Source: Fidelibacterota bacterium
GTDB taxonomy: Bacteria > Fidelibacterota > UBA8477 > JABMPR01
Assembly (NCBI GenBank): GCA_013203185.1
Contig: JABMOS010000096.1
Coordinates: 1-37,321, forward strand
DNA: 37,321 nt
Direction of reading: 5' to 3'
Numbering within the stretch: the stretch's first letter is position 1; every line of letters begins with the position of its first letter. Under the pieces are notes generated by a model. That model saw only the letters and a program-made list of their open reading frames with translations, was not told the DNA's origin and did no database searches. Below, in pieces: positions 11,457-35,974 of this stretch. Made by a program: the position numbers and the translations under genes.

Positions 11457-11915
11457 CTATTTCAGTAATTGAATATCCAGGATAGTCAAAGTTTTGACAC
11501 CATCAGGGAGATCCAGGGTCAGTGTATCACCAACCTTCTTGCCCAGAACCCGTTGAGCAAAGGGGGATGCAGTGGTAACGATGTTTTCATAGAGCTCTAA
11601 TTCATACTCTGCTGCACCGGCCATAGATACAGTAATTGGATTTTCACCATCGGAATAAGTAACCTGTGTACCAAAAGAAACCCGGTCAGCTTTGACATCC
11701 TTAGGTTCTACAACCTCTTCATCCAGATGCTTTTCGAAGCGGTGACGCTTATTGTGCAGGTGTGCCTGGTTGTCCTTGGCAGCATGGTATTCGGCATTCT
11801 CTTTCAAATCTCCAAAATCGGCTGCTCTTTTTATATCCTTTGTATTCTGCTTGATCTCATCATTAATCTCATGAATTTTCTCAACAATCATATTGTAGGT
11901 GCTACGGTATATCAT
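11457..11915 (-). CDS. greA: Transcription elongation factor GreA/GreB family
   Basis: Cleavage factor that enters the RNA polymerase secondary channel and stimulates transcript cleavage in backtracked complexes. The N-terminal coiled coil (about 1-75) carries the tip motif FGDLKENAEYHAAKDNQ, with the two acidic tip residues at D36 and E39. The C-terminal FKBP-like domain (about 80-152) ends SPFAQRVLGKKVGD, matching the usual SP(I/F)GxALLGKxxGD segment. At 152 residues it is a few residues shorter than typical GreA. It sits alone between its own predicted promoter and a strong terminator. GreA versus GreB cannot be settled fully, but the sequence around the tip favours GreA. Confidence 0.93.
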   Translation of the reverse strand: MIYRSTYNMIVEKIHEINDEIKQNTKDIKRAADFGDLKENAEYHAAKDNQAHLHNKRHRFEKHLDEEVVEPKDVKADRVSFGTQVTYSDGENPITVSMAGAAEYELELYENIVTTASPFAQRVLGKKVGDTLTLDLPDGVKTLTILDIQLLK

Positions 11916-11999
11916 GCTTTTCGCCTTTTATCTTCTTCCTGTTTCTTATCCGACTACTTAGTTACATGAGCTCTGTAGACTCGTTTTAGTCGGGCCTTA

Positions 12000-12028
12000 A
12001 TTATAATCGACAGTTGTGCATCAGTCCA
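12000..12028 (-). promoter_or_regulatory. Predicted sigma70-type promoter of greA
   Basis: On the minus strand TGGACT (12028-12023) and TATAAT (12005-12000) are separated by 17 bases, giving four of six and six of six matches to consensus. The start would lie near 11993, about 78 bases before the greA ATG. The first leader bases, CCGACTA (11993-11987), are complementary to TAGTCGG at 11956-11950, so the leader can form a seven-base stem. Confidence 0.5.
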
Positions 12029-12182
12029 GCATTTAGGAGGCATCCAACATAGTAAATTTGCCCCACTCACTCCATAAACAGAACTGATTGGAAAATTCAT
12101 TCTCCAGCTAGTCCCATTAAAATATTTTTAGTGTTCGAGACAAACCATCTGGCTCACCTTGTTGAGATCAGTTGCCTGAGCG

Positions 12183-12557
12183 CTAGTCGATAGCTTCCCA
12201 AATATTTGGGATCGGCAAAAGGGTAATTATAATGCCCGCCAGGACACTAATTATAATATTGCTTGTCAATGGCATCTGACTCACAGTCTGAGGGGATTCG
12301 GAATCTTGAGATTTGTCCATTCCTTCTGGGGTAATCTCATAGTACCAGGACAAAAATAAGGCAGCAGGAAAACCAGCAGCCATTATACCCATAATAAGTA
12401 ATATTATCCATTCAGGGATACCCACCCATGGGAAAGTCATCTTGCACATTTCCAGAATCACAAAGCCTGTAAGCAGATAAACGGTTGCTACCCTGAGGAC
12501 ATGTCTGCGACGGAGCTCAGCATAAAATGAGGCTAATCTTGAAGGTTTATTAGCCAC
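12183..12557 (-). CDS. Orphan membrane module of the TolB_N/TPR family
   Basis: A 124-residue protein equivalent to only the N-terminal membrane part of the three larger genes upstream. It has the basic ELRRRHVLRVATVYL start, two hydrophobic segments (about 22-45 and 48-73), the conserved EITPEGM after the second helix, a linker, and a third helix (about 98-117). It stops where the TolB_N domain would begin. The start is GTG at 12557, overlapping the previous stop by eight bases, so it is translationally coupled. The downstream sequence does not resume a TolB_N reading frame, which argues against recent truncation. It may be a free membrane partner of the larger proteins or a stabilised remnant. 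Confidence 0.72.
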   Translation of the reverse strand: MANKPSRLASFYAELRRRHVLRVATVYLLTGFVILEMCKMTFPWVGIPEWIILLIMGIMAAGFPAALFLSWYYEITPEGMDKSQDSESPQTVSQMPLTSNIIISVLAGIIITLLPIPNIWEAID

Positions 12558-14568
12558 TCTGACCAGAATATTGTTTAAGCAGCTTTTGAAAACGAGGCTG
12601 GTTTCTCAATGGATCATAAAGAGGGGACAATTTTAACCAATTGGCGGATAACCATCCTGGCATGCTCAAAATTTGTGCGTATAAATTAATCGATTCATCG
12701 TATCTGCCACAAACCAGGTATATCTCAGCCAGATCTTCCAGGGCTGTCGGCCCTGACAATCTATCTCGAGATAGAGACATTAGCTCTACTTCCTGCTTGC
12801 CCCAGTCAAGGGCCTCCTCAGTTCGACCGAGTTTTGCTAAGGCAACGCCTAAGTCCCCATAAATATTCCAGTTATTGGGACTCTCCTCGATCAATTTTTC
12901 TGCTTCAATCCGGGCTGAATCAAAATAGGTCTGTGCCATTTCAACTTGACCTGTCAACTCTAACAGATTCCCGATATTTAAATTAGATCCTTCTGGGTCA
13001 GCGAGTTCTATAGCCAACAAGCTTTCATAATCCCTGGTGAATGCAGCATGCATCTTCCTGACCTCAAGCAGATCTTCAGGGTCAAACTTGGTCAGGAGCT
13101 GATCCAGAATGGATTGCAGTTTTTCCAAATCTCCTGATTGCGCCAATTCAATGTAATAACGGCCCTGTTCTGTGCCGGGTTCATTGCCGCTATGAATAGC
13201 AGATAATTGCCCTTGATAGCGTTCAGACAGGTCCCATAAGCGCATCATATATGTCATATCCCGCATCTGCCTCACCTTATTTCCGTCATTGGGATCCAGG
13301 GAAACTGCTTTCTGTAGTTTCTCCAGCGATTCATCCCACTGGCCAAGTCGTCTTTGAACAAATGCTGTGGCAGCGAGGAGGTCACTGTTATTGGGTTGGG
13401 ATTCCATGGCGATAGAAAATTCTTCAAGGGCTTGAGCATAGTTTCGGGCACCATAATAATGGAAATATCCCTGTGCCCGATGCGTTTCAGATGCGTTTGG
13501 ATCGAGTTGGATAGCTTTCTCCAAAGCTGCTCTGGCTTTTTCCAGGCGTTCGGGTCTTGGATCAAGACCTGATCCATCAAAATATGCATAGGCATGCAGT
13601 GCTGTTAGCTCGGTGTATGGCAGCAAAAAACCTGGATCAAGCTCAACCGCCTGTTCAAAAATGACTGCGATTGAGTCCCGCTCCATGATGTCAGCATCCC
13701 ACAGCAATTCTGCCCGGACATACAGCTCCCAGGCTTTCTGATTTTCGGTGGGTTTGGTTTCAATATATTGCTTTTCTTTGGGTGTAAGTTTGGCCTTCAA
13801 AGCCCTGGCAATTTTCTGGGCTACTTCACTCTGCATACTAAAAATATCAGCATATTTGCGGTCAAAGGTTTCCGCCCAGAGATGTTCATCGGTTTCAGCA
13901 TTGATGAGCTGGGCCACAATACGGATCTGATCCCCGACCCTTCGAACACTTCCCTCAAGGACGTTTGCAACGCCCAACTCCCTGGCAATATCTGAAATGA
14001 GCATGGTGGTTTCCTTGTATTGCATGACGGAGGTTCTGGAAATCACCTTTAAATCAGCGACCTTGGAAAGTTGGGTCAGAATATCGTCATGCATACCATC
14101 TGCGAAACTCTGGTCATCGTCAGTTTTGGTAAAGGGTGTAAAGGGCAAAACAGCTATTGACTTGGAATCTATTAGAGACAGTGAGTCCTGACCAACAAAG
14201 CTTGAATCCCTGAATTGTGAATATACCAGCAACCCGGCAATGATGATCAACAAAACGATGATCGTGGCGTTTCCTGTGAGGGGTTTATCCGATTGAGATT
14301 GTTTCTCGCCAGATTTTGGTGAACGGCGTAGTCCTTCGGGTGTCATTTGAAACATCCATGCGAGGATGATGGCTACAGGAAAACCAATCACCAAGAGACC
14401 GAGAATAATTTTTACAATGACACCGGGGAAACCCATTGTGGGTACAATAATGGAGGATGCCTCCAGAATGGCATAACCCACACCCAAATAGACAGCTGTT
14501 ACTCGGAAAACACGGCGGTTGCGGAGTTCCTGGATCAACTTGATCATGCCTGATTCTGATTTAGTCAT
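12550..14568 (-). CDS. Membrane-anchored TolB_N (FlgO-like)/TPR protein, paralog 3
   Basis: A 672-residue member of the 'ELRNRRVFRV' membrane/TolB_N/TPR family. The N-terminus is cytosolic and basic, with hydrophobic segments at about 20-42 and 47-72, the cytosolic linker TPEGLRRSPKSGE, and a third helix at about 99-117. A TolB amino-terminal-like domain follows (about 134-250), with SIAVLPF, FADGMHDDILTQLS, VLEGSVRR and EHLWAETFDR. TPR repeats run from about 270 to the C-terminus. With three helices, the TolB_N and TPR parts are predicted to be periplasmic. Domains of this kind appear in cyclase, CadC-like and kinase proteins, here without any catalytic partner. It is third in a four-gene operon; the biochemical role is unknown, with protein-complex scaffolding or signalling most likely. 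Confidence 0.85.
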   Translation of the reverse strand: MTKSESGMIKLIQELRNRRVFRVTAVYLGVGYAILEASSIIVPTMGFPGVIVKIILGLLVIGFPVAIILAWMFQMTPEGLRRSPKSGEKQSQSDKPLTGNATIIVLLIIIAGLLVYSQFRDSSFVGQDSLSLIDSKSIAVLPFTPFTKTDDDQSFADGMHDDILTQLSKVADLKVISRTSVMQYKETTMLISDIARELGVANVLEGSVRRVGDQIRIVAQLINAETDEHLWAETFDRKYADIFSMQSEVAQKIARALKAKLTPKEKQYIETKPTENQKAWELYVRAELLWDADIMERDSIAVIFEQAVELDPGFLLPYTELTALHAYAYFDGSGLDPRPERLEKARAALEKAIQLDPNASETHRAQGYFHYYGARNYAQALEEFSIAMESQPNNSDLLAATAFVQRRLGQWDESLEKLQKAVSLDPNDGNKVRQMRDMTYMMRLWDLSERYQGQLSAIHSGNEPGTEQGRYYIELAQSGDLEKLQSILDQLLTKFDPEDLLEVRKMHAAFTRDYESLLAIELADPEGSNLNIGNLLELTGQVEMAQTYFDSARIEAEKLIEESPNNWNIYGDLGVALAKLGRTEEALDWGKQEVELMSLSRDRLSGPTALEDLAEIYLVCGRYDESINLYAQILSMPGWLSANWLKLSPLYDPLRNQPRFQKLLKQYSGQSG

Positions 14569-14580
14569 AAATCTTTCTTC

Positions 14581-16728
14581 TCAGGACCGTTTGATCAGGT
14601 CTTGAAAGAGAGGGTTGTCCCTGAGAAAGTTAAACAGTGGTTTTTGTTTAATTATATTCATGGTTATCTGTGATGGAATATTCACCAACCTCTCCACCAG
14701 GCCAAGGGTCTCGTCCACCATTTTAGCGCTGGCGTAGATATAGCATAAATTTTCTAAAGCAACCGCCCCGTCAACAGCGTCGGTCTCAAGGGGTTTGAGC
14801 TGAGTTGCTTTCAGACCAGCCTTGATACCCTCCTCAATCTGTCCCAGAGCTGCCAAGGCAAGACCAAGCTGTCCCCAGGCCAGAATATCCCCTGGAGCTT
14901 TTTTGAGCTTGTCCTGAGATCCTTCCTTGAGTGCCCTGTAGTATTCCTGAGCTTTTTCACTTTGACCCAACAGGTCAAACCCCTGGGCAAAATATTGATT
15001 AAAATAATATTGTTCATTCAGGTAGGATTCACCTATTGCCAATAATTTGCTGATTTCAGCCGTATCTTGCTTTAGATAATAGAGCTCAAATTTATTCTCC
15101 CAGGCCACGATGGTTGAATCGTTCATACCGCTATCCAGATATGAATTAACTGCAAGATCGATATCGCCTGTTTCCTCCAAGGTGATCATCGCCTCAAAAA
15201 ACCTCCAGGTCGGTTGATCTGGTTGGAGAGCAATGAGCAGATCATTGTACTTCCGGGCATTTTCAATATCCCGCACATCGAATGCAGTCATGGCTGCATT
15301 TCCGATAATGCTGGGTGCCAGTGGGTCTAATTCTACAGCGTGATCAAACAGCTCAAGACTTTTTGCTGTATCTCCCTGACGTCTTCTAATAGCTGCTGTA
15401 TATAGAAACAACAGTGCTGCATTAGGCATTTGCTCTATGGAGCGATCAAATTTTTCAAGTGCCAGTTTGTAATCGCGATCCACATAATAGGCATAGAGTC
15501 CTTGTGCAGACTGAACCCTGGGATGATCAGGATCCAACTTAATGGCTCGTGAAAGCGCCGCCCGGGCAATCTCTTTATCCCTGGCTACCTCTCCGATGTT
15601 CCAGTGTACTGAGATCGCACTTGCTTCCACCAGATCCGTAAGCGCATTCAGCATGTCTGGATCCAGTTCAAGAGCCTGTTGATAGAGCTTTACAGCATCG
15701 GTAATGATACTCTGCTCAGCCTGATTAACCCCGTAGCTTAAATAAGTCAGGCGACCCCGCATATATAACTGATAGGCTTTCAGGTTCTCTGTGGGTTTTT
15801 CTTCAATATACGCCATTTCTCTGGGTGTTAGGGTGGCTCGCATGGCAGTTGCTATATGTTTGGCGACTTCTGTTTGAACACTGAAAATATCGGCATACTT
15901 GCGGTCAAAAGTTTCTGCCCATAGATGTTCATCGCTTCTAGCTTTTATGAGCTGGGCGACAATCCTAATCTGCTCTCCAGCCCTGCGCACGCTGCCCTCC
16001 AGGACATGTGCCACCCCTAATTCTGCTGCAATAGTGGAAATAAGTTTGGTGGTCCCTTTATACTGCATCACTGAAGTTCTGGATATAACTTTAAGATCAG
16101 CGATCTTTGACAACTGGGTGAGAATGTCATCGTGAACTCCGTCTGCAAAGGTTTGGTCCTCTTTCTCATCACCGAAAGGAGTAAAGGGCAATACGGCGAT
16201 TGATTTGTCATTGACCACATCTTGAATCGCCACTGGCTGACTTTGGCCTCTCTTGGATTTAAAAAGAGGAACAGCAAGCATGACTGCTATGATTATCAAC
16301 AGAGCAGCAAAGGTGGTGTCGTTCATGAGCCCTCGACCAAGGGAGGTTTCTTCTCCAAGGGATGAGGATATAAAATCGGGTATTAGCATGAGACCAGCTA
16401 GAATAATGAGCAGAACAATGATGATTCCATTGCTGGTGAGTGGTTTTTGCTCCGAGCCTTGCTTCTCACCTGATTTTGGTGAACGGCGTATACCATCCGG
16501 AGTCACCTGGAACATCCAGGCCAAAATGATGGCTACAGGCAACCCAATGACCAGGAGACCCAATATTATTTTTACGATTATAGCAGGGAAACCCATGGTA
16601 GGGATGATAATTGAAGATGCTTCAAGAATGGCATAGCCTACTCCCAGATAGACTGCCACTACGCGAAAGACCCGCCGGTTACGGAGTTCCCGTATGAAAA
16701 GAGCAAATTTGCCTGATTGTTCACTCAT
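14581..16728 (-). CDS. Membrane-anchored TolB_N (FlgO-like)/TPR protein, paralog 2 with extra helix
   Basis: A 715-residue paralog of its two neighbours. It repeats the RELRNRRVFRVVAVYL start, two hydrophobic segments and the DGIRRSPKSGE linker, followed by a third helix (about 104-122). Unlike the neighbours it has a fourth helix (TTFAALLIIIAVMLAVP, about 138-155) followed by the basic KSKRG. The TolB_N domain (about 175-290; SIAVLPF, FADGVHDDILTQLS, VLEGSVRR) and the TPRs (about 315-700) are otherwise as in the paralogs. An even helix count and the positive-inside rule predict that its large domain is cytosolic, opposite to the other two. Its ATG starts two bases after the stop of paralog 1, so it depends on that gene's translation. 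Confidence 0.85.
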   Translation of the reverse strand: MSEQSGKFALFIRELRNRRVFRVVAVYLGVGYAILEASSIIIPTMGFPAIIVKIILGLLVIGLPVAIILAWMFQVTPDGIRRSPKSGEKQGSEQKPLTSNGIIIVLLIILAGLMLIPDFISSSLGEETSLGRGLMNDTTFAALLIIIAVMLAVPLFKSKRGQSQPVAIQDVVNDKSIAVLPFTPFGDEKEDQTFADGVHDDILTQLSKIADLKVISRTSVMQYKGTTKLISTIAAELGVAHVLEGSVRRAGEQIRIVAQLIKARSDEHLWAETFDRKYADIFSVQTEVAKHIATAMRATLTPREMAYIEEKPTENLKAYQLYMRGRLTYLSYGVNQAEQSIITDAVKLYQQALELDPDMLNALTDLVEASAISVHWNIGEVARDKEIARAALSRAIKLDPDHPRVQSAQGLYAYYVDRDYKLALEKFDRSIEQMPNAALLFLYTAAIRRRQGDTAKSLELFDHAVELDPLAPSIIGNAAMTAFDVRDIENARKYNDLLIALQPDQPTWRFFEAMITLEETGDIDLAVNSYLDSGMNDSTIVAWENKFELYYLKQDTAEISKLLAIGESYLNEQYYFNQYFAQGFDLLGQSEKAQEYYRALKEGSQDKLKKAPGDILAWGQLGLALAALGQIEEGIKAGLKATQLKPLETDAVDGAVALENLCYIYASAKMVDETLGLVERLVNIPSQITMNIIKQKPLFNFLRDNPLFQDLIKRS

Positions 16729-16730
16729 GT

Positions 16731-18764
16731 TTAGGCTGTGACCCCATATTTAGTAATCAAATTTGAATAGCGAGGATGCTCCCTGAGCGAATCAAAGAAG
16801 GGATTGAGTTTGATCATCCAGATAGACACCGGGTTAGGATAAGTCAGCAATGATTCCAGCAGGTCGAATGCTAAATCTGCTTCCCCGGTTATGCTGTAAA
16901 CCTCTGCCAATCTGTATATATAATCAAAACCATCGACTGGGTAAGTTTCATTGGGTCGTTTCTGGATGGCTAATTTCCCGAGTTTTGTTGCCTCAAGTTT
17001 CTTGCCCTGCAAGGCTCTGATAAAACTCAAGCTGCTCAGGGCATTGGCATCGTCCTGGTCCTTGCTAATGAGATCTTCCTCCAGTCGGGCAGCTGAATCA
17101 AGTTGGGCAGCCAGGGACTCTACATCTCCCTGTAAATAGTGGACAACAGCTTTAAAATAGTGGATCAAATCCTTTGGGCCTGCATGGGCTATTTGTATCG
17201 CTGAATTATAGTTTCGTTCCTCAATGAGTAACCAGAATTTAACGGGCTTGAGCATTTCTGCATTCTCGGCAACCAGCAGACCATCATCTATCACCCCCAA
17301 AGCTTTCTTCGAATCCCCAAACCCATACTGGTAGGTTCGAGCTAGAAAGGTATAAACCAAAGCGTTCTCTGGATTTACTGTTAGCTCCGCCAAAAGAGCT
17401 TTCAGAGCGATATCATAATTCCGCATATAGGAATTATACCCTCCCCACCAGGCAGCATTGCCCACAGCATCTGGTTCCAGATCGTATGCCGCTTTGAGGT
17501 AGGTACCTGCCTTTTCCCAATTTCCCACATCGAAATATATTCGCCCTGTATGCTGGGCAAACTCACCACGTGTAGGTTCCAGCTTGAAGGCAATTTCAAA
17601 TTCAGCCAAAGCCGCTTCCTGATCATCTAGACACCAGTCATTAAAGACACCCTGGGCAAAGTGACTCTCTGCCTGTGCTGGAATCAGAGCACGAGCCTTC
17701 TTAAGGGCGTTTTCTGCCATGGTTTTTCTCTCTGGGGTTGGGTCCCAGTTTCGGCTCTGATATAACACGGAATGAACGATGGATAGCCTGGCATAGGCCA
17801 GTCCGAAGCTTGGATCAAGATCTACCGCCTTCTGGTACATGGCAGCTGCACGGAGATTGCCTTCTTTGGTTGTCTTGGTATACCAGTAGGTGTTACCCCT
17901 GAGGAAATAATCGTAGGCTTCCATATTGGTTGTTGGAATATTTTCTAAATGCTTTTCTTCTTCTGGAGTCAATGTTGACTTGAGTGCTGTGGCAATTTTC
18001 CGAGCTACATCGGTCTGAATGGAAAAAATATCGGCATATTCACGATCGTAGGTCTCAGCCCAGAGATGCTCATCGCTTTTGGCCTTGATAAGCTGAGCCA
18101 CAATACGTACCTGATCTCCTGCACGACGAACACTGCCTTCCAGAATATTGGCAGCGCCCACTTCTTCAGCAATTTCGTTCATGCTTTTATCAGAATCTTT
18201 GTATTTAATCATGGTGGTTCTTGAAATGATCTTCAGATCACCAATTTTTGATAATTGGGTGAGAATATCATCGTGAATCCCATCTGCAAAATAGGCGTCT
18301 TCCTCGTTGGATGAAAAATTGGTAAAGGGAAGTACTGCTACTGCCTTGGCATCCAGGATATCCAGGTTTTCTGCTTTGGTACCATACTTTTCAGAGGATT
18401 TATCGCTCACTCTAGGATAGGCTAAAAGGCCAACAATAGCTATGAGGAGCACGATAATAACACTATTCCCCGTGAAGGGTTTTTGCTCTTCAGTCTGCCT
18501 TTCGCCTGATTTAGGCGAACGTCGCAACCCTTCAGGGGTAAACTGAAAAGTCCAAGCCAAGCCGATTGCCATGGGAAAACCGCCTATGAGCGTCCAAAAT
18601 ACCGCCTTCACCACATAGCCAGGCAATCCCAGCATGGGAACAACAATATCTGCTGCTTCAAGAAGAGCAAATCCCACCCCCAGATACACTGCTACCGCCC
18701 GGAAAACCCTCCGATTTCGGAGTTCTTGCACTATTCCACCAGGACCGTTTTTTTGCTCGCTCAT
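16731..18764 (-). CDS. Membrane-anchored TolB_N (FlgO-like)/TPR protein, paralog 1
   Basis: The 677-residue first gene of the operon. It has a basic cytosolic start (QELRNRRVFRAVAVYL), hydrophobic segments at about 22-44 and 49-74, a cytosolic linker (TPEGLRRSPKSGE), and a third helix (about 101-117). Next comes a TolB_N domain (about 136-250) with AVAVLPF, FADGIHDDILTQLS, ILEGSVRR and EHLWAETYDR. TPR-type helical repeats run from about 270 to the end, including ALEXP-like turns such as DLDPSFGLAYARL. The predicted topology places the large part in the periplasm. ATG at 18764 has GGGGAT upstream, the clearest ribosome binding site of the operon. No catalytic domain is present; the role is unknown. 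Confidence 0.85.
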   Translation of the reverse strand: MSEQKNGPGGIVQELRNRRVFRAVAVYLGVGFALLEAADIVVPMLGLPGYVVKAVFWTLIGGFPMAIGLAWTFQFTPEGLRRSPKSGERQTEEQKPFTGNSVIIVLLIAIVGLLAYPRVSDKSSEKYGTKAENLDILDAKAVAVLPFTNFSSNEEDAYFADGIHDDILTQLSKIGDLKIISRTTMIKYKDSDKSMNEIAEEVGAANILEGSVRRAGDQVRIVAQLIKAKSDEHLWAETYDREYADIFSIQTDVARKIATALKSTLTPEEEKHLENIPTTNMEAYDYFLRGNTYWYTKTTKEGNLRAAAMYQKAVDLDPSFGLAYARLSIVHSVLYQSRNWDPTPERKTMAENALKKARALIPAQAESHFAQGVFNDWCLDDQEAALAEFEIAFKLEPTRGEFAQHTGRIYFDVGNWEKAGTYLKAAYDLEPDAVGNAAWWGGYNSYMRNYDIALKALLAELTVNPENALVYTFLARTYQYGFGDSKKALGVIDDGLLVAENAEMLKPVKFWLLIEERNYNSAIQIAHAGPKDLIHYFKAVVHYLQGDVESLAAQLDSAARLEEDLISKDQDDANALSSLSFIRALQGKKLEATKLGKLAIQKRPNETYPVDGFDYIYRLAEVYSITGEADLAFDLLESLLTYPNPVSIWMIKLNPFFDSLREHPRYSNLITKYGVTA

Positions 18765-18910: not shown

Positions 18911-19672
18911 CTAAAATCTAAGGGAAAGACAGCTCAGCCCACCATCTAGCTTCCTGAATTCGGACACATCAACTTCCAGCACATCATATCCGGCCTGGCT
19001 GATGGTTTGGAGGGCATGAGGATAACCCTGGGGAACAAGAACGGTATCATTGATCCAGATAGAGTTCGCAGCATAACTTTCTGACGGCTCAATGGGCAAA
19101 ATATTGAAACTCTGAAAATCAGGATGGGTGAGAAACTCGCCACAGGCCAGGAGGTTATTGCCTTCCAGATAGGCCACTCCTGTTTTCAGATGGAGCACTT
19201 CCTTCAAATCAACCACAGATCCAGTAAATCCATATTTTTGGAGATAAGCTAGTAGTTGATGAGCTCCCCATAGGTTTGTACGTGCAGATAAGCCGATAAA
19301 AAAATGTGAATCCACCATCATCACATCGCCTGCTTCAAGGGTACCTGGTGTTTGGATTGCTTCAATATTCTCAAAGTAGTGTTCTAGCAAACCTCGCATG
19401 CCCTGAATTTCTCCACGTCGTGAGGGGGCGCCAGGGGTGGTAATAATGGCACACGTATTTGTGAGCAGTGCCACATCTTCTATAAAGGTTGAGTCAGGAA
19501 ATTCAGGCAGTGCTTCCAGACAGGTGACCTCCAAACCACAGGATTCAAGGGCCTGGATGTAGGCCTCATGTTGTTGCACTGCCAGATCAAAGTCAGGCTT
19601 GCCATCATTGGCAGAGGTGAGACCATTGATCATAGTGGGTGCGGGCTTTCTGACGATGGCTTTGGTGAACAT
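18911..19672 (-). CDS. ddaH: Dimethylargininase (DDAH)-like guanidino-modifying hydrolase
   Basis: Hydrolase of the amidinotransferase/pentein superfamily, expected to convert N-omega-dimethylarginine to citrulline and dimethylamine (EC 3.5.3.18) in the cytoplasm. Family motifs are FIEDVAL (63-69), TLEAGDVM (E113), LHLKTGV with the catalytic His161, and the C-terminal LDGGLSCLSLRF with the nucleophile Cys248. The 253-residue length matches bacterial DDAH. A close relative acting on arginine or another guanidine cannot be excluded. The ATG is preceded by GGAGTAGG. The gene is divergent from the BASS transporter across a 281-base gap. Confidence 0.88.
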   Translation of the reverse strand: MFTKAIVRKPAPTMINGLTSANDGKPDFDLAVQQHEAYIQALESCGLEVTCLEALPEFPDSTFIEDVALLTNTCAIITTPGAPSRRGEIQGMRGLLEHYFENIEAIQTPGTLEAGDVMMVDSHFFIGLSARTNLWGAHQLLAYLQKYGFTGSVVDLKEVLHLKTGVAYLEGNNLLACGEFLTHPDFQSFNILPIEPSESYAANSIWINDTVLVPQGYPHALQTISQAGYDVLEVDVSEFRKLDGGLSCLSLRF

Positions 19673-24592: not shown

Positions 24593-26752
24593 TTATTTCG
24601 CTTTCAGTGAGAAGGTAAAGGATGTTCCTGCATCTGGAACAGGTGCTACACTAATGCTGCCACCTAATTTTTCAACGAATTCCTTGACCAGAATTAATCC
24701 GAGACCACTACTTGGTTCACCATTGGTCCCATCACGTTTTAGCGTATTTCCCAGTGTGAAAATATTAATGTACTCTTCCTCAGGGATTCCAATTCCAGTA
24801 TCAGAGACACTCACAAAAATGTTGGAATCAGCTGTATATATGGAGAGTGTAACCTCTCCCCCAGAGTGGGTGAATTTGATGGCATTAGATATGAGGTTTC
24901 TAAAAATTGCTCCCAACATATCTGCATCAACAAGGACAACGATATCATTTCCAACCTCACTATTGAGGGATATACGCTTTTCTTTTGCCTGACTCCTGTG
25001 AATTGAAAGTTCATGATCTATAAACTCACCTAAATTTAACTCAACCATATTCACCTGCATGGCACCGGTTTGAATGCGTGACCATATCAGTAAATTCTCA
25101 AGCAGATTAAATGTACTTTTAGTTGACTCGCTCATGGTCTTGAGCAACTCAAGCACCTTTTCTCTAGAAAGGGTTGGGAATACTTCCACAGCAGTGGACA
25201 TCAATTGCATGGTGCTTCCCAAGGGGGATCGTAGATCGTGGGAAATAATGGAAAATAACTTATTTTTGGTGGCGACTAGACTCTCCAGCTCCCTGCGTTG
25301 GGCATCCACCACCAGCAACGTTTTTCTTTTGGAGAGATACATAAAAATGAGTACCAGTGTAAATACAAGAATGGAAATAATCACTGCTCCCAGGAGTACC
25401 TGGGTGGTTCTCTGTTTCTCTAATTTTATTTTTATCAACTGATTTTCGAAATTCAGCGTGTTTATCTCCTGGCGACGCGCCTCGCGCTCATGGAAGTTTT
25501 TCATCCCGGTTATTTTCACCGAAGCCAGACGATCTGCAAGCAATTGGGTTAGGGAAGTCTGAAATGATAGATATTCATATGCCGTCTCAAGATCTCCCGC
25601 CTCATAATACATCTCCGCCAGGACACCATACAATTTATTCTCCATACGTAGCTGTTGAGACTCTGTCGCCAGTTTCAATCCCGTTTTTGCTGAATCAATT
25701 CCGGCCTGTTTTTGTCCCATATCATATAATGAACGACCTATGTATTCATAAATTTGTGTTAACACAAGAACATCCTTGCCGCTTTGCTTTAGCAGTCTGG
25801 ATTGTTCAAGATATTCAATGGCTTTAGGGAAATTTTTGAGCTCATATTCGATTTTACCCAAATTTTTTAAGGTAATGGCAAGCCCATGAGAGTTGCGAGC
25901 GGAAGAATGAATTCTATTTGATCTAAGAACAAATTCTAGTGCCTTCTCATATAGTTTTTGATCGAAGTATATGTCTCCAATCTGATCCAGACAGATGGCC
26001 ACGCCGAGGCTATCTTTAACCTCCCGTTCATAGGTATACAGACTTTTATACAAATAGTCCAATGCTTCCTCGTACAACTCTAAATCTTTATAGATATTTG
26101 CCAGTGAGTACTGAATCCAGGCTTTGCCTTCATTGAAACCAATTTGAGCATAGTGTGTCTCGGCCTTGGTGATATAACTAATCGCCTGTTCATATTCACC
26201 TTGGATTCTGTGGACGTTACCCAGTAGCGAATAGCATGCCCCCATTGCCCTGTGATCGCCTGCTCGGGTGGCGGCATCAATTGCCTTGAGATAATTTTCT
26301 ATGGAAGCTGAATTGTTGCCCCTGGCACTCTCAATGGTTCCCAGCTGAATTAAAATTTTTGCTATAAGTTGATCATTATTTGACGCTTCTGCCAAACCCA
26401 GGGCGATGAATTGAACAGATCTTGATTTTTCTAAATTCCTGCGATTAAAATAAAACATCCCTTGATAATATTGCACATATGCCAGATGTGGCTTGTATCC
26501 CTGCAGCACATTTGTCAAGGAGTCAAATGTCTCCTCAACACCGGAGGAATCCATCGTGAAATTAGTTTTCAGTGCTTCCAGAATATTTTGGAGTTCATCC
26601 ACTTTGTTGATATGGGTCTGGTCTGGATCGGCTGCAAATACTGGCACCTGTCCAGCAAGTGATATGATTACTGCGACGGCATATAGAAACGACCGAGGAA
26701 TTAGAGTAGCTTTTAGTATGTTTTTTATGCTATTTGGATTCATTCCGAACAA
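24593..26752 (-). CDS. Periplasmic-TPR sensor histidine kinase
   Basis: Membrane histidine kinase of 719 residues. A signal peptide or signal anchor (about 18-40, ending VFAADP) is followed by about eight TPR units in the periplasm (about 60-430; for example GRSLYDMGQKQAG). A coiled coil and one transmembrane helix (about 448-472) lead to HisKA with H505 in IISHDLRSP and a HATPase domain (about 605-719; N box NLISNAIKF, G1 DTGIGI, G2 SSGLGL). This is the common FCB-group TPR kinase layout, with no receiver attached. The start is TTG at 26752 with AGGGGGA eight bases upstream; ATG three codons later is possible. It is last in the kinase operon, 36 bases after the 870-residue kinase, and convergent with the REC-PAS gene. 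Confidence 0.92.
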   Translation of the reverse strand: MFGMNPNSIKNILKATLIPRSFLYAVAVIISLAGQVPVFAADPDQTHINKVDELQNILEALKTNFTMDSSGVEETFDSLTNVLQGYKPHLAYVQYYQGMFYFNRRNLEKSRSVQFIALGLAEASNNDQLIAKILIQLGTIESARGNNSASIENYLKAIDAATRAGDHRAMGACYSLLGNVHRIQGEYEQAISYITKAETHYAQIGFNEGKAWIQYSLANIYKDLELYEEALDYLYKSLYTYEREVKDSLGVAICLDQIGDIYFDQKLYEKALEFVLRSNRIHSSARNSHGLAITLKNLGKIEYELKNFPKAIEYLEQSRLLKQSGKDVLVLTQIYEYIGRSLYDMGQKQAGIDSAKTGLKLATESQQLRMENKLYGVLAEMYYEAGDLETAYEYLSFQTSLTQLLADRLASVKITGMKNFHEREARRQEINTLNFENQLIKIKLEKQRTTQVLLGAVIISILVFTLVLIFMYLSKRKTLLVVDAQRRELESLVATKNKLFSIISHDLRSPLGSTMQLMSTAVEVFPTLSREKVLELLKTMSESTKSTFNLLENLLIWSRIQTGAMQVNMVELNLGEFIDHELSIHRSQAKEKRISLNSEVGNDIVVLVDADMLGAIFRNLISNAIKFTHSGGEVTLSIYTADSNIFVSVSDTGIGIPEEEYINIFTLGNTLKRDGTNGEPSSGLGLILVKEFVEKLGGSISVAPVPDAGTSFTFSLKAK

Positions 26753-26788
26753 CTAATTAATCCCCCTATTAACCATCCTACGATGGTA

Positions 26789-29401
26789 TCAGCTCGCTTT
26801 CACTTCTTGTGGCAGATGCAACCGAAAACGATTCCCAGTGGGGGCATTTGCCTCAACCCAGACCTTGGCGCCGTGTGCCTGGGCAATACGTTGTACAATG
26901 GCAAGCCCCAATCCCCTTCCAACTTTCTTTTCCTTGGCGAGTTGGATATTGCGTTCAAAGACAAGAGCCTGTTCCTGCTCAGAAATTGTCTCGCCAAAAT
27001 CATCGACGCTAATCTGCACACCATCCTCTTCCCAGGCTTGAACGATTATTCTCTTACCCATACTGGCGTATTTGATGGCATTACTAATGTAATTTTTAAA
27101 GATTTCACTCAAAATGGGATTTGCATGGATCTGAATATGATCTGGACATGTCAATTCAATGGTCATTTTTGCCTCCTTAAGGAGGGCCGGGAACTCGTCG
27201 AGGGTGTCCCTCAACATATGATGGAGGTTTATGTCTTCAAGCGGGATGGTTTCACCTGCAACTGTCTGGCTTAGCAAGGTTGTATTGTCCAGAACCTTGA
27301 GTAGTCGAGTACTCCCTATATGAATATGCTCAATCAAAGTATCATCAGGGAATTGCGCCCGGGCTAACTCTGAGAAATTGTAAATACTCCCTATGGGATT
27401 TCTCAGATCATGGGTAATGATATCCAGCAACAGCTCTTTTAGTCGCTCTGAAACAGCAAGTTTATCATCGGCCTGTTTTGCCATGATGGAGTTGGCAATC
27501 TGAGAGGAGACAAATTCAAGTAGAGATACATGACTCTCATTAAAATGGTTTTCGTCGGTATAACTTTGAACCACAATGGCACCGATACAATTATCACCAA
27601 TTATCATAGGCGTACCCAACCAGATTTTGGATGGCGTCCCAGTTAGAACGATATCACCGTCTTTGTCCATTCTGACCATGTCCTCGCCGTTGGCAAGTAA
27701 GGATTTTTTGGTGTTCAGTATGTATTCAGTCATACCCTTCCCAAAATCTACGATTCCAGGATGATCATCATGCTCATCGATATAGAAGGGAAAGGACAAC
27801 TTACTGCGCTCTGAATCAAGGACAGCGATATAGAAATTTTTGGTATCCAACACATCACTTAGATATGAGTGTATGCTTTGACAAAGGTCTTCAAGAGATT
27901 TTGAGAATTGTCCAGCACTTGCTATCTGGAACAGGACCGATTGCAAGTGATATTCTCTATTCAGATTCTCTTCAGCAATTTTCCGGTCATTCACATTTAG
28001 AGAATACTCAATAATCTGGGTGACTTCGCCTGCATTATCAAATATGGGAAAACTATGAACCTCAAAATGGTTGGGCACCCCATCAGGACCGGGATGAATA
28101 TGTTCCACAACAGCTGGTTGCTTCGTATCCCGGGTTAATACCAGCGGACAGGGGTGTTCTACAGAGTCACAGGGCAAATCACGACCATGGCTCAGTGCAT
28201 AACAGCTCGTAGCTGATTTATATTGAGAGTTAAGGGCAGCCGGATTGGCAAGTACGATGGAATAATCATTGGCATCAATCACCAGGAAGGGATGCTGCAA
28301 TGAACCAATGACATCCTCCAAAAACTTAGATTGTTTTTCAAATTCAAGCCTGGTTTTTACTATATCAGTAATATCCCGTGAGATTCCAACGGTACCGAAT
28401 ATCTCACCACTGGGGTCTTTCAAGGGCCACTTTATGGCTGAGATCCACCGATCTTCCTTACCATCTATGTAATGTTCCTCGCTACCAATTAGAGGCTCCC
28501 CAGTTTTTAGCACGCTTTGCTCATCTTCAAATGCCTGTTGTGCCTGTTCTTTTGTGAAAAAATCAAAATCCGATTTTCCAATAGCCTCCTCGGGGTCCCT
28601 GAGATTTAAAAATTTTGACTGTGATTTATTTATTCTGATAAAGCGGCTGTCAAGATCCTTGAAATAGATATGATCAGGTGTGTTGTCTATCAAACCATTG
28701 AGGAGTATTCTCTCCCTGATCAGTTCTTGCATGACCGCCTTGTTGTGTTTATTCCCTCGATACATTGAGTAGTACAAAAGCAAAAGAGCCAGCGGAAGGA
28801 TGCCCAGACTAATTATCCATATGCCCCAATATTGGGCTCGCAATGCGGAATCAATCTCGTGATCCAGGGCAGTTTTTGACCGGTGCACCCCAATCATCCA
28901 ATTTTTTCCAGGAACTGGTGAAAAAGCAGCAATCTGTAGCTCACCTGTGCTGGATACATAATGTCCAACATAGTCTTTAGGCGCTTGAACCAGAGCACCC
29001 AACGTGGATGTTTTAAAATGTTCTGAATCTACCAGTCGATTACCAGCAATATTATCACCCACTGTCTGAGGTTGGGCACTGTGAAAGAGAAGCTGGGATG
29101 AATCATTTATTACACAGATATACTCATCCCAGGGAAGATTCGGGGTGGCCTGCCAGGATCGATTCATCTCATCAAGCAAAGTTGAATCTGAGAATGAATG
29201 CCTCTCTGAGGATATGGAAGCTAAAGAAATTGCCTTCGCCTGGTAAAAGCTGGCCATTTGAGTTTCAATTTTATTGGATGTCACCTCCAGCATACTCACC
29301 CCCAGCAATAAACTTCCTATGGATGCTGAAAGGCCAAGCACAACGGCGAAGAGTGCGATGATAAGACTCTTTTTCTCGATTCTAGAAGAATTATTTAGCA
29401 T
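26789..29401 (-). CDS. Cache-PAS-PAS-GAF sensor histidine kinase
   Basis: An 870-residue membrane kinase. TM1 (about 14-36) and TM2 (191-213) flank a Cache-like periplasmic domain (YICVINDSSQLLFHS; NWMIGVHR). Two PAS domains follow (about 235-355 and 365-480), then GAF (about 490-645), HisKA with H664 in IITHDLRNP, and HATPase (about 760-870; N box NYISNAIKY, G2 GRGLGL). The second PAS has an unusual Cys/His cluster (C400, H405, C411, H416, C418) that could bind metal or a cofactor. The G1 box reads DDFGETI rather than DxGxGI, so ATP turnover may be altered. The ATG has GAGGA upstream. It has no receiver of its own; the lone receiver gene starts 42 bases upstream in the operon. Confidence 0.92.
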   Translation of the reverse strand: MLNNSSRIEKKSLIIALFAVVLGLSASIGSLLLGVSMLEVTSNKIETQMASFYQAKAISLASISSERHSFSDSTLLDEMNRSWQATPNLPWDEYICVINDSSQLLFHSAQPQTVGDNIAGNRLVDSEHFKTSTLGALVQAPKDYVGHYVSSTGELQIAAFSPVPGKNWMIGVHRSKTALDHEIDSALRAQYWGIWIISLGILPLALLLLYYSMYRGNKHNKAVMQELIRERILLNGLIDNTPDHIYFKDLDSRFIRINKSQSKFLNLRDPEEAIGKSDFDFFTKEQAQQAFEDEQSVLKTGEPLIGSEEHYIDGKEDRWISAIKWPLKDPSGEIFGTVGISRDITDIVKTRLEFEKQSKFLEDVIGSLQHPFLVIDANDYSIVLANPAALNSQYKSATSCYALSHGRDLPCDSVEHPCPLVLTRDTKQPAVVEHIHPGPDGVPNHFEVHSFPIFDNAGEVTQIIEYSLNVNDRKIAEENLNREYHLQSVLFQIASAGQFSKSLEDLCQSIHSYLSDVLDTKNFYIAVLDSERSKLSFPFYIDEHDDHPGIVDFGKGMTEYILNTKKSLLANGEDMVRMDKDGDIVLTGTPSKIWLGTPMIIGDNCIGAIVVQSYTDENHFNESHVSLLEFVSSQIANSIMAKQADDKLAVSERLKELLLDIITHDLRNPIGSIYNFSELARAQFPDDTLIEHIHIGSTRLLKVLDNTTLLSQTVAGETIPLEDINLHHMLRDTLDEFPALLKEAKMTIELTCPDHIQIHANPILSEIFKNYISNAIKYASMGKRIIVQAWEEDGVQISVDDFGETISEQEQALVFERNIQLAKEKKVGRGLGLAIVQRIAQAHGAKVWVEANAPTGNRFRLHLPQEVKAS

Positions 29402-29443
29402 GAGATTCCTCGAGAACCCTCATAAGTATATTTGCCATTTTGC

Positions 29444-29827
29444 CTAGCATCCAAGTGCCTTGATATGTTTTTCCAGCGAATCAATCAATACACCGCTCAT
29501 GATGGGCTTGGTAAAAAATTCAGCAGCACCTGCCTCCATGGCCTCTATCCGATTCTGAGGGAAAGCATGGGCAGTGAGTGCAATGCAAGTTGGTTTCTCA
29601 GGATATTTTTCACCCATGAATTTCATTAAATCAATACCATTCTCTCCACCAGGTAATGATATGTCAATGATAGCCACACAAAACTTGAAATTGACCAGGG
29701 CTTTTTTTGCTTCTGCAACCGTGGAGACAATTTCAAGATCATAATGGTCTTCAAGAATAATAGTATAGTATTGCTGTGATGATATGTCATCCTCAACAAT
29801 GAGTAGTCTGTGTTTCTGTTTATCCAC
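29444..29827 (-). CDS. Single-domain response regulator within the kinase operon
   Basis: A 127-residue stand-alone receiver. Acidic residues are in LLIVEDD, phospho-acceptor D55 is in AIIDISLPG, the Thr/Ala segment is IALTAHAF, and the invariant lysine is in FFTKPI. The sequence resembles receivers of hybrid kinases more than transcription factor receivers. Start is GTG at 29827 with AGGGG eight bases upstream, overlapping the stop of the 896-residue kinase by eight bases. It is therefore translationally coupled to that kinase. It is the natural phosphate acceptor or shuttle between the kinases of this operon, since it has no effector domain. Confidence 0.93.
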   Translation of the reverse strand: MDKQKHRLLIVEDDISSQQYYTIILEDHYDLEIVSTVAEAKKALVNFKFCVAIIDISLPGGENGIDLMKFMGEKYPEKPTCIALTAHAFPQNRIEAMEAGAAEFFTKPIMSGVLIDSLEKHIKALGC

Positions 29828-32510
29828 GATCGTTGCCCCTATATTTTGGGAAGGTGAGTGTAAAGGTAGTACCTACGTTTTTCTGAGTTTCCATTTCAAG
29901 TTCCACATCATTCAAATCGAGAAACTGCCTGGTGAGCGCCAATCCTAAACCAACGCCCTGGTATTCTTTGGTAAACCCTTCACTTTCCTGGGTATAGGGT
30001 TCAAAAACACGGTGCTTGTAGGTTTCTGCAATTCCGATACCCGAATCGCTGATTGAAAGGCAAGCCTGATCATCTTCCATTGCCAGTGTTAATTTGATGC
30101 CACCTGTGTTTGTGTATTTGATGGCGTTGTCAATCAAATTACCAATAGCAGAATTAATACAATTTCTATCTACAAATACTTCGGAGAGATGCCCTGAATC
30201 GATGAGTTCCAGCGAAAGGCTCTTTTTTTCTGCCAGAACCCTGAAATTATTGGCGATAATGGCTGTCGTCTGACTCAAATTTATAACTTCTTTGTGGACA
30301 GAAATAGTACCAGATTTGAGCATGGACATATTGAGAATGGAGTCCACAGTGTGCATCAAGCGCTCACTGGAATCAGTGATATAATCAAAAATAACCCTGT
30401 CTTTTTCCTGAATATCAGCTGAATATCTTTGTTTAAATAAATCTGAAAAACCCAGAATACTGTTCAGAGGTGTCCGTATCTCATGGGAAATATTGGCAAT
30501 GAACTGATCCTTAACTTCATTTGCTTTTTTGGCTTCCAGTAGGGCTTCTGCCTTTTCTATTTCTATTTGCTTACGACCTGTAATATCCTGAATAGCTCCA
30601 AAAAGTCGAATCGTCTTCCCATCTTCCACCTCCACCTCTCCCAGGGTTCTCACCCATAAAGATTCACCGCTGGCATTGATAAAAGGGATCTCCACATCGT
30701 AGGGCTTGTGCTCCTTAATAGCGCGATCTACACATTCTTGGATGATGGCTCGCGCTTCAGGAGGATAGAATTTTGTGCCATCTTCAACGGAAGGGGTTGG
30801 ACCCTCTGGGTCTAGACCATAAATAAGAAATGTCCCCCTTGTCCATCGGGGCTCTCCTGTGACTAGATTTATTTCAAACCCACCAATCTTAGTTAATTGG
30901 GCAGAAGTCGTGATTAACGCTTCCTTGCTGCGCAGCTCAGCTTGTGTTTGCTCCTGCTCAGTGATATCCATTCCCAGGCCAACCAAACAAGGTGCTCCAT
31001 TTACTATGATTTTTTTACCAGTGAATTGGTAGGGTATGCCTTGACCGTCTTTGGCTATAAACCGACCCTTAACTTGAACGTCACCATGGGTGAACACCTT
31101 CTTAATAGCTGAAGCAATCACCTGCTTGTCTGATCCTTCAAACAAATCCACCGGGCTGATTTGTCCCATCTCCTCTGCGGAACGACCTGTAACCCTTTCA
31201 AAATTTGTATTCCAGCGTAAAAACTTTCCTTCCTCACTAATAAGATAAAATACGCCAGGGAGGCCACTAACCAGGGAGTCGGAGAACAGCTTTTCTGCCA
31301 TTACAACTTTCTCAGCCTGTTTTCGCATAGTGACATCTACAGCCATGCTCAGGAGCGTTCGCTTACCCTGGGGGTTGATCCCCAATGGTGTGGTCTTAAA
31401 ATCCCAAATTCGTATGGTTCCATCTTTGGCAGTCACGGACCATTCGCCATTATTAGTGGTATCGTCGATCTCAAAGAGCTCATCGATATACTTTTTCTCC
31501 AAACCACTTGCAGAGCCATATGCCTGTTTGGTCCAATCCTGGAGGGTAGGAATTTCTTGAAGTGTATACCCAGAGGAATCCGTCCACCCTTTACTTAATT
31601 GGAGCACATTATCGTCTTCATCATGGATCATAATCGGGATAGGAGAGCCTGTGACTGCACGTCTAAACTGTTCTTCACTGTGCCTCAGCGCTTGTTCTAC
31701 TCTGGTTCGCTCTGATATATCCTGGAATACGCAGTAGGTTTGCTTTACAGAACCGTCTTGATTATACCCTATATTTCCGTTCAAATTGATATCAATATAA
31801 TGGCCGTCGTGATGTCGGATTTTAAAGTGGACATCATCGACTCTACCGCACTTTTTAAAGTTCGGAAAATTCTCATTAAATGTAGCCACAAACTCGGGAT
31901 GCAGGAATTCTCCAAAATTCAGGCCCAGCACCTCCTCTCGGCTATACCCGAGCAAGTCTAGCCAGGTTTGGTTCAAATCGACAAAGTTGCCTTCGGGATC
32001 TAAGGAATGATAGGGCAGTGGGGAATTCTCATAAAGTGCACGGAACTTCTGCTCGCTATAGTGTAACACCTCTGTTCTTTCTTCTACAAGGTCCTCAAGC
32101 TCACTTTTTTCCTGACGCAACCTATCTTCGGCAATCTTGATACGTAACATGACTTTGATTTGTGCAACCAACTCGTTTTCATTAATGGGTTTATTCAGAA
32201 ACGCATCTGCCCCTATCTCAAAGCCTTTGACACGAGCATCACTACTGGTGAGAATGGCCGTGAGCAGGATTATGGGAATGATACTTAATCCAGGTTCAGC
32301 CTTCAATAAGCGGCAAACTTCATAACCATCCAAACTAGGCATGATAATATCCAACAAAATGACATCAGGGCTTTCCAGCCGAGCTAATTCAATACCTTCC
32401 ATGCCTGAGAGTGCTGTTACAATTTGCATCTCAGGCATGAGTTTTTTGCAAATTGCCCTAACAACTATGAGATTGTCAGGCTTATCATCTATTACGAGAA
32501 TCTTAGGCAT
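29820..32510 (-). CDS. REC-PASx4 histidine kinase (soluble)
   Basis: An 896-residue cytoplasmic kinase with no membrane segment. It has an N-terminal receiver (about 1-118; D54 in VILLDIIMP, K in LNKPI) and a coiled-coil linker (ELEDLVEERTEVL). Four PAS domains follow (about 150-270, 280-395, 405-520 and 530-645; each ends in a DIT/DIS-type PAC tail). Next are HisKA with H676 in NISHEIRTP, and HATPase (about 780-890; N box NLIDNAIKY, DSGIGI, GVGLGL). The ATG at 32510 has GGGGAGG six bases upstream; the GTG at 32525 lies within that site and is less likely. An N-terminal receiver suggests it is itself controlled by an upstream kinase such as the 1113-residue hybrid. Confidence 0.93.
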   Translation of the reverse strand: MPKILVIDDKPDNLIVVRAICKKLMPEMQIVTALSGMEGIELARLESPDVILLDIIMPSLDGYEVCRLLKAEPGLSIIPIILLTAILTSSDARVKGFEIGADAFLNKPINENELVAQIKVMLRIKIAEDRLRQEKSELEDLVEERTEVLHYSEQKFRALYENSPLPYHSLDPEGNFVDLNQTWLDLLGYSREEVLGLNFGEFLHPEFVATFNENFPNFKKCGRVDDVHFKIRHHDGHYIDINLNGNIGYNQDGSVKQTYCVFQDISERTRVEQALRHSEEQFRRAVTGSPIPIMIHDEDDNVLQLSKGWTDSSGYTLQEIPTLQDWTKQAYGSASGLEKKYIDELFEIDDTTNNGEWSVTAKDGTIRIWDFKTTPLGINPQGKRTLLSMAVDVTMRKQAEKVVMAEKLFSDSLVSGLPGVFYLISEEGKFLRWNTNFERVTGRSAEEMGQISPVDLFEGSDKQVIASAIKKVFTHGDVQVKGRFIAKDGQGIPYQFTGKKIIVNGAPCLVGLGMDITEQEQTQAELRSKEALITTSAQLTKIGGFEINLVTGEPRWTRGTFLIYGLDPEGPTPSVEDGTKFYPPEARAIIQECVDRAIKEHKPYDVEIPFINASGESLWVRTLGEVEVEDGKTIRLFGAIQDITGRKQIEIEKAEALLEAKKANEVKDQFIANISHEIRTPLNSILGFSDLFKQRYSADIQEKDRVIFDYITDSSERLMHTVDSILNMSMLKSGTISVHKEVINLSQTTAIIANNFRVLAEKKSLSLELIDSGHLSEVFVDRNCINSAIGNLIDNAIKYTNTGGIKLTLAMEDDQACLSISDSGIGIAETYKHRVFEPYTQESEGFTKEYQGVGLGLALTRQFLDLNDVELEMETQKNVGTTFTLTFPKYRGNDRG

Positions 32511-32552
32511 TATTTGCCTCCCCACAACTTAGGTACGTGGCTGATTTTATCA

Positions 32553-35894: not shown

Positions 35895-35974
35895 GCTCTC
35901 ATCTCCAGTTTACATATCAATGGTTTTTAACGTGGCGTAATCCGAATAGCTCCTGCAATTGGCGAGCCATCGTA

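Follow-up and report, generated by a model that had tools for sequence, protein, structure and literature searches.

Within a tandem array of TolB_N/TPR paralogs on the minus strand of the window (the whole 37,321-nucleotide stretch of Fidelibacterota DNA analysed here, contig 85 of a 3.07-Mb assembly), the middle paralog, p2, carries four hydrophobic segments before its soluble module. The additional segment, TM4, resembles TM3, is found in two species and lies between an acidic loop and a basic stretch. The explanation that we consider rather probable as a whole is that TM3 was duplicated and that the p2 module came to lie in the cytosol, with the homologous modules of p1 and p3 in the periplasm; for the p2 module itself, the cytosolic side is the most likely one. 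The observation holds, whereas the topological claim is likely and is contested by amino acid composition.

Table 1 Features of the TolB_N/TPR array (positions in the window)
Feature	Position	Strand	Description
p1	12550..14568	-	672 aa, 3 TM, TolB_N predicted periplasmic
p2	14581..16728	-	ATG start, 715 aa; 4 predicted TM, TolB_N/CadC-like alpha-beta domain, TPR
p3	16731..18764	-	677 aa, 3 TM, TolB_N predicted periplasmic
p4 stub	12183..12557	-	124 aa, three-helix membrane domain only
Dimethylargininase-like gene	18911..19672	-	directly upstream of array
p2 TM1	16603..16662	-	aa 23-42, marginal hydrophobicity (scan and HMM)
p2 TM2	16510..16578	-	aa 51-73 (scan and HMM)
p2 basic loop RRSPKSGE	16438..16509	-	aa 74-97, predicted cytosolic; common to p1 and p3
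p2 TM3	16378..16437	-	aa 98-117 (scan and HMM)
p2 TM3-TM4 loop	16318..16377	-	aa 118-137, acidic, predicted periplasmic
p2 TM4	16261..16317	-	aa 138-156, extra helix, likely tandem TM3 copy
p2 KSKRG	16246..16260	-	aa 157-161, basic flank behind TM4
p2 TolB_N/CadC-like alpha-beta domain	15799..16206	-	about aa 175-310
p2 TPR superhelix	14584..15798	-	about aa 311-715 (Pfam, AlphaFold2, fold comparison)

By coordinate the minus-strand array runs p4, p1, p2, p3, with p2 between p3 and p1. The intergenic gaps measure 2 bases (p3/p2) and 12 bases (p2/p1) and the p4 start overlaps the p1 end by 8 bases; therefore, the array is likely transcribed as a single unit. No enrichment over shuffles emerged when the array was scanned for promoters and terminators (15 vs 13.0 and 6 vs 7.1). 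The first 120 residues of p2 are 73% identical to p1 and 57% identical to p3, and all three proteins share the family motifs, namely an N-terminal anchor with ELRxRRVFR and GFPxAxxxAW followed by TolB_N. We regard p1, p2, p3 and p4 as a putative tandem inner-membrane family with a related three-helix anchor, in which p1-p3 would carry a CadC-like sensor or scaffold module composed of the alpha-beta domain and the TPR. Anchor-only stubs similar to p4 terminate the arrays of loci L036 and L038, a full-length p4-like protein is present in L033, L034 and L016, and L037:6513-6878 encodes a 114-aa form with two helices and a C-terminal tail, as if a paralog with an internal deletion.

Pfam assigned only TPR and TPR-like helical families to the array proteins, with no DNA-binding domain family listed for p1-p3 at E 0.01; their N-terminus is a membrane domain at the place where CadC has its winged-helix DNA-binding domain. 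The AlphaFold2 model of p2 (44 sequences) has a mean pLDDT of 88.1, with low values around TM3-TM4 and the linker. In this model the soluble module adopts the same fold as the periplasmic sensor of CadC. Its residues from about 166 to 500 superimpose on the CadC periplasmic domain over 301-306 residues with an rmsd of 3.7-4.0 and 10% identity. The top four VIA-align rows are all CadC (3LY7, 3LY8, 3LY9 and 3LYA; Z 23.0-23.4) and are followed by TPR proteins at Z of at most 19.4, while Foldseek places the CadC rows at ranks 23-31, after TPR proteins, with a target TM-score of 0.68-0.70. According to passages of PMC9214523, the CadC periplasmic domain is an alpha-beta sandwich followed by TPR; passages of the same paper and of PMC3096576 describe a sensor that responds to low pH, binds cadaverine and has a C208-C272 disulfide at pH 7.6. 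The E. coli protein, a ToxR-like one-component regulator, thus shares the alpha-beta plus TPR sensor fold with p2, yet it differs in having a winged-helix DNA-binding domain, which p1-p3 lack, in having one TM helix and a shorter TPR instead of three or four predicted helices and a longer one, and in the periplasmic position of a domain that in p2 is predicted on the opposite side of the membrane.

Residues 139-266 of p3 match positions 22-149 of NCBIfam TIGR02800 (E 2.9e-5, 23.2 bits; cut-off 343), by which the name TolB_N is fair for p3. The N-terminal domain of Tol-Pal TolB matches p3 in this way, but TolB continues into a beta-propeller whereas the p2 model continues into TPR helices. For p2, none of the TolB, CadC or HilA NCBIfam models was listed at E 1. 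The CadC model PRK10153 gave 24.1 bits for p1 and 35.7 bits for p3, below its curated cut-off of 400, and the HilA/EilA model PRK12370 matched p1 at aa 136-517 (E 5.9e-8, 31.5 bits; below its cut-off of 589) and was not listed for p2 or p3. PRK12370 also matches K-12 YgeH (aa 13-432), an E. coli HilA-family protein of 458 aa, 10 of them Cys, for which no TM is predicted. The HilA/EilA/YgeH regulators have an N-terminal DNA-binding domain and no membrane domain, in contrast to p1-p3, which are without a DNA-binding domain. With the family TolB_N profile alone, neither YgeH nor CadC nor TolB was recovered, so the HilA-family link runs through PRK12370 and the fold; a profile of the family soluble part gave weak scores for CadC (E 0.015) and YgeH (E 0.0013, on the TPR part) under an assumed 5000 sequences. 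The matches of PRK12370 to both YgeH and p1 are hints that different families use the module on opposite sides of the membrane.

To count the membrane helices, the paralogs were subjected to a hydrophobicity scan and to a topology HMM. Upstream of TolB_N, p1 and p3 each gave three segments in the scan, whereas p2 gave four. The fourth segment of p2, TTFAALLIIIAVMLAVPLF, occupies aa 138-156 and is directly followed by KSKRG (aa 157-161); the initial annotation had seen this helix and its basic flank and had ended the helix one residue earlier, at 155. TM4 contains 19 residues without a charge, and its hydrophobicity is about that of TM2 and TM3. TM1 is marginal in all three paralogs (scores 1.0 to 1.8) and uncalled by the scan in a few 3-TM relatives, and TM2 of p3 is equally marginal (1.2). 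The HMM is TMHMM-like with our own approximate parameters, and its TM-entry setting was chosen on the same 29 E. coli proteins, with topologies assigned by us, that served as the test set. At the setting used, its best path returned the right TM count in 26/29 and the right C-terminal side in 26/29 of these proteins, with no false TM in 8 soluble proteins; sides by posterior were right in 21/29, and the probabilities are consequently not calibrated. The HMM predicted 3 TM for p1 and p3 with P(out) of 0.987 and 0.983 at the TolB_N start, and 4 TM for p2 with P(in) of 0.995 and P(out) of 0.003. The same uncalibrated measure gave P(in) 0.995 for the p2 ortholog described below and P(out) 0.98-0.99 for its three array neighbours. 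The 14 family members tested kept their TM counts and sides over three TM-entry settings. The annotation had proposed that three helices leave TolB_N of p1 and p3 in the periplasm; the scan agrees with the helix count, and the HMM, a topology prediction of the kind that it had suggested for all three paralogs, gives the domain an outside position in p1 and p3 but an inside one in p2, on uncalibrated probabilities.

A common sidedness could be restored if one of the early p2 helices did not span the membrane, which the annotation had named as the observation that would undo its claim. This is not what the HMM favours. When TolB_N of p2 is forced outside, the best path retains TM1-TM3 and omits TM4, at a cost of 4.3 nats (3.1 nats for the same path in the ortholog). 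Loss of TM1 in p2, although that helix is marginal, was rejected as it is not the cheapest alternative. Forcing TolB_N inside cost 5.3 nats in p1 and 3.1 nats in p3, which are likewise modest margins, and there the alternative path does lose TM1. The basic N-terminal RNRR stretch is common to p1, p2 and p3 and therefore argues against an N-out p2.

An ortholog of p2 with 74% identity is encoded at L031:6546-8714 in genome G018 and retains the 4-TM form. Identity between the two proteins amounts to 63% in TM4 and 65% in TM3, compared with 25% in the loop before TM4 and 17% in the linker behind it; TolB_N is 88% identical and the TPR has a dN/dS of 0.06. For TM4 itself, synonymous sites are saturated for a dN/dS. 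Retention of the helix in this ortholog ruled out chance hydrophobicity of TM4. Of 18 members aligned, only p2 and the G018 ortholog have the TM4 insert. A TM3 profile built from 13 other members scored 20.1 against TM4 of p2 and 25.1 against TM4 of the ortholog, as opposed to -15.3 to -0.1 against TM1 and TM2 of all 18 members; none of 5000 shuffles of the TM4 core attained the observed score in either protein. At the DNA level, the likeness of TM3 and TM4 exceeded that of codon shuffles (0/200 in both p2 and the ortholog). The match of TM4 to the TM3 profile of 13 relatives therefore makes a tandem duplication of TM3 the most likely origin of TM4, as judged from sequence likeness. In the p2 ancestor, the TM3 segment would have been copied in tandem and the copy would have become TM4; the identity pattern may further be read as selection having kept TM4 as a helix after the duplication.

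TM4 is known from these two sequences only. Searches with whole p2 matched 11 of 245 genomes of the phylum (E 1e-100), and the whole protein including TM4 was recovered in two, its own genome and G018; the same two genomes were recovered among 19 genomes of the genus (E 1e-30). Such whole-p2 searches may miss copies cut at contig ends.

The charges around TM4 were then compared with those of relatives. The TM3-TM4 loop has a net charge of -3 in p2 and -5 in the ortholog, and the 15 residues after the last TM carry +2 and +1, respectively. The acidic loop and the basic stretch behind TM4 would most likely place the p2 module in the cytosol. The 15-residue measure ranges from -4 to +1 in 32 same-genus 3-TM members, from -4 to +2 over 67 3-TM members (L098 dropped; three at +2) and from -2 to 0 in 2-TM members. 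Since 3-TM members reach +2 and 2-TM members sit at -2 to 0, this charge does not separate the classes cleanly and does not by itself indicate a cytosolic side.

To place p2 among its relatives, the anchored TolB_N/TPR family was surveyed in Neomarinimicrobiota, Gemmatimonadota and Pseudomonadota; for the same-genus loci, the tree labels read Fidelibacterota. A motif scan of genome contigs with a single pattern yielded 60 loci, which together with regions of relatives provided 84 distinct proteins with the anchor and a placed TolB_N. HMM calls were 3-TM/outside for 66 of these, 2-TM/inside for 16 and 4-TM/inside for 2. The proteins called 2-TM in L016 (P(in) 0.34) and L098 (P(in) 0.15) were relabelled 3-TM on reading the sequences, which reduced the 2-TM class from 16 to 14. 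Two further 4-TM calls were set aside, one from L113, whose 172 aa lack TolB_N and whose fourth segment is of low complexity, and one from L125 (masked residues, no placed TolB_N). A tree was calculated from the 77 of the 84 proteins whose soluble part reaches 250 aa or more (61 three-helix, 14 two-helix and 2 four-helix rows, including L076_9171, a contig-cut copy of L031_10716). On this tree helix number requires at least 3 changes. Uniting the 2-TM rows as one clade was rejected (p-AU 0.00035), as was uniting all even-helix rows (p-AU 8e-5). The 2-TM rows form one clade in Neomarinimicrobiota (3 rows) and another in Gemmatimonadota plus Pseudomonadota (3 + 8 rows). The stem leading to the p2 pair is long, at 0.93 changes per column. 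Helix number, and hence the side predicted for the module, was altered repeatedly in the evolution of this family. TolB_N members of both parities occur together in the window, L031/L076 (G018), L035/L085 (G007), L041/L081 (G017) and L122. Judging from the 2-TM relatives and their predicted topology, a cytosolic module appears possible in this family. The initial annotation's notion that homologous modules face both sides of the membrane gains from 2-TM relatives that adjoin 3-TM ones in other genomes, and its sidedness remains a prediction. Literature searches on opposite or inverted topology listed no paper on the anchored TolB_N/TPR family (presumed label COG5616), as judged by title or abstract start.

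Cysteine content offered a test that is independent of helix counts. Periplasmic proteins tend to be cysteine-poor. A literature search on cysteine content by compartment found nothing, and the rule used here is general knowledge together with our own counts. In these loci the mean is 1.17% for TM-less proteins (n=45) and 0.43% for probable exported proteins (n=9). For soluble parts longer than 400 aa, it is 1.00% in 2-TM members (12), 0.16% in 3-TM members (55) and 0.09% in 4-TM members (2). Three same-genus 2-TM members have 3, 4 and 4 cysteines in their soluble parts and 24 3-TM members have 0-2; p2 has 1 and the ortholog 0. When the first 420 aa of each soluble part in the tree were counted, more than 0.4% cysteine was present in 14/14 2-TM, 5/61 3-TM and 0/2 4-TM proteins, although this link with parity comprises 2 independent pairs on the tree, so that a sign test is unable to reach 0.05. 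Among proteins of at least 400 aa, none of 2 exported and none of 8 TM-less proteins was as cysteine-poor as p2, with the exported yardstick being small (9). The parity rule is thus backed for 2-TM versus 3-TM members, and by its cysteines p2 looks periplasmic. Given cysteine-rich 2-TM members, cysteine-poor 3-TM members and a cysteine-poor p2 pair, p2 therefore either flipped late or never flipped. A simple relaxation model with assumed turnover put the probability of at most 1 Cys in one sequence at 0.07-0.24 for a switch at the base of the stem and at 0.41-0.59 for a late switch; an ortholog without any Cys is less likely still under this model.

These counts favour the strongest alternative, in which the p2 module is periplasmic, TM4 is re-entrant, surface-bound or packed on TM3 without crossing, and one sidedness holds throughout the array. 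Besides the cysteine content of p2 and the ortholog, which matches the 3-TM class, the cheapest outside HMM path simply omits TM4, and AlphaFold2 models TM4 as a low-confidence 16-residue helix (137-152, with pLDDT under 50 at 121-135 and 150-169). However, TM4 as an uncharged segment about as hydrophobic as TM2 and TM3 resembles a spanning helix, KSKRG lies behind it, the uncalibrated P(out) is minimal, and the low cysteine content may be inherited, as its probability extends from 0.07 to 0.59 with assumed turnover and switch time. We therefore judge this alternative unlikely, though the best placed of the rivals. Considerably less probable is a mixed or dual topology, in which some p2 molecules insert TM4 and others do not so that one gene supplies both sides; the modest best-path margin and the conflict of helix count with cysteine content would agree with it, but the charge asymmetry across TM4 does not. 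That TM4 is no more than a functionless insertion in a degenerating paralog is hardly credible, for although arrays of this family do decay (the p4 stub and the L037 form) and the same-genus loci fetched have a 4-TM member only in the window and L031, the ortholog keeps both frame and helix and its TPR and TolB_N are conserved. Returning to TM3 duplication with a cytosolic module, the annotation's step from the fourth helix to the cytosol is partly supported, by the four predicted spans, the charges and the conserved helix, and is opposed by the cysteine content. We regard a cytosolic p2 TolB_N/TPR module as a probable prediction, and hold our estimate no higher because the cysteines of p2 and its ortholog look periplasmic.

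Under the favoured explanation, three crossings would leave the modules of p1 and p3 in the periplasm. Helix gain would have occurred through tandem TM3 copying in the p2 clade, with a two-helix state in two other separate clades. It is possible, at somewhat less than even confidence, that the family repeatedly moves its module by the gain or loss of one helix and that mixed operons make a receptor with homologous modules on both faces, joined via similar anchors. More doubtful is the specific proposal that p2 pairs with p1 or p3 via these anchors and offers a cytosolic TPR surface to an effector. Membrane protein pairs of the SMR dual-topology type are likewise encoded by adjacent homologous genes with part of the chain in opposite orientation, which for the p1-p3 array is a prediction; unlike in those pairs, the anchor of p1-p3 would keep its orientation and only the soluble module would switch, via the added helix.

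The family may have a sensor or scaffold role tied to signals from the envelope or from amino acids, a proposal with weak support. A gene resembling dimethylargininase (358 bits against NCBIfam NF045658, whose cut-off is 450) is directly upstream on the same strand in all 10 loci where it was found among 21 sequences searched, a count in which L032 and L043 are near-copies. MASE10-adenylate cyclase genes adjoin family members at L041:7497-8957 and L039:2216-3688. Elsewhere in the window, 24593-37234 carries histidine kinase, PAS and response regulator genes in a row, one of them coding for a TPR-histidine kinase, and 7124-8386 matches MATCAP (PF08014, microtubule-associated tyrosine carboxypeptidase; E 5e-123) over almost the full length, here in a bacterial genome. 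A DUF2804 gene lies between the array and GreA in L032, L033, L034 and L036 (Pfam on the L034 copy) and is absent from that place here (11915-12183) and in L031 and L038.

Soluble domains are usually kept on one side of the membrane through evolution. If confirmed, p2 and its relatives would constitute a natural series of two, three and four helices along which a single homologous module moves between compartments, by a route that in one case is traceable to the copying of a single helix. Such a series would allow direct tests of how topology evolves and of how fast composition, such as cysteine content, follows, and it would point to receptors that present matching faces to the interior and the exterior of the cell.
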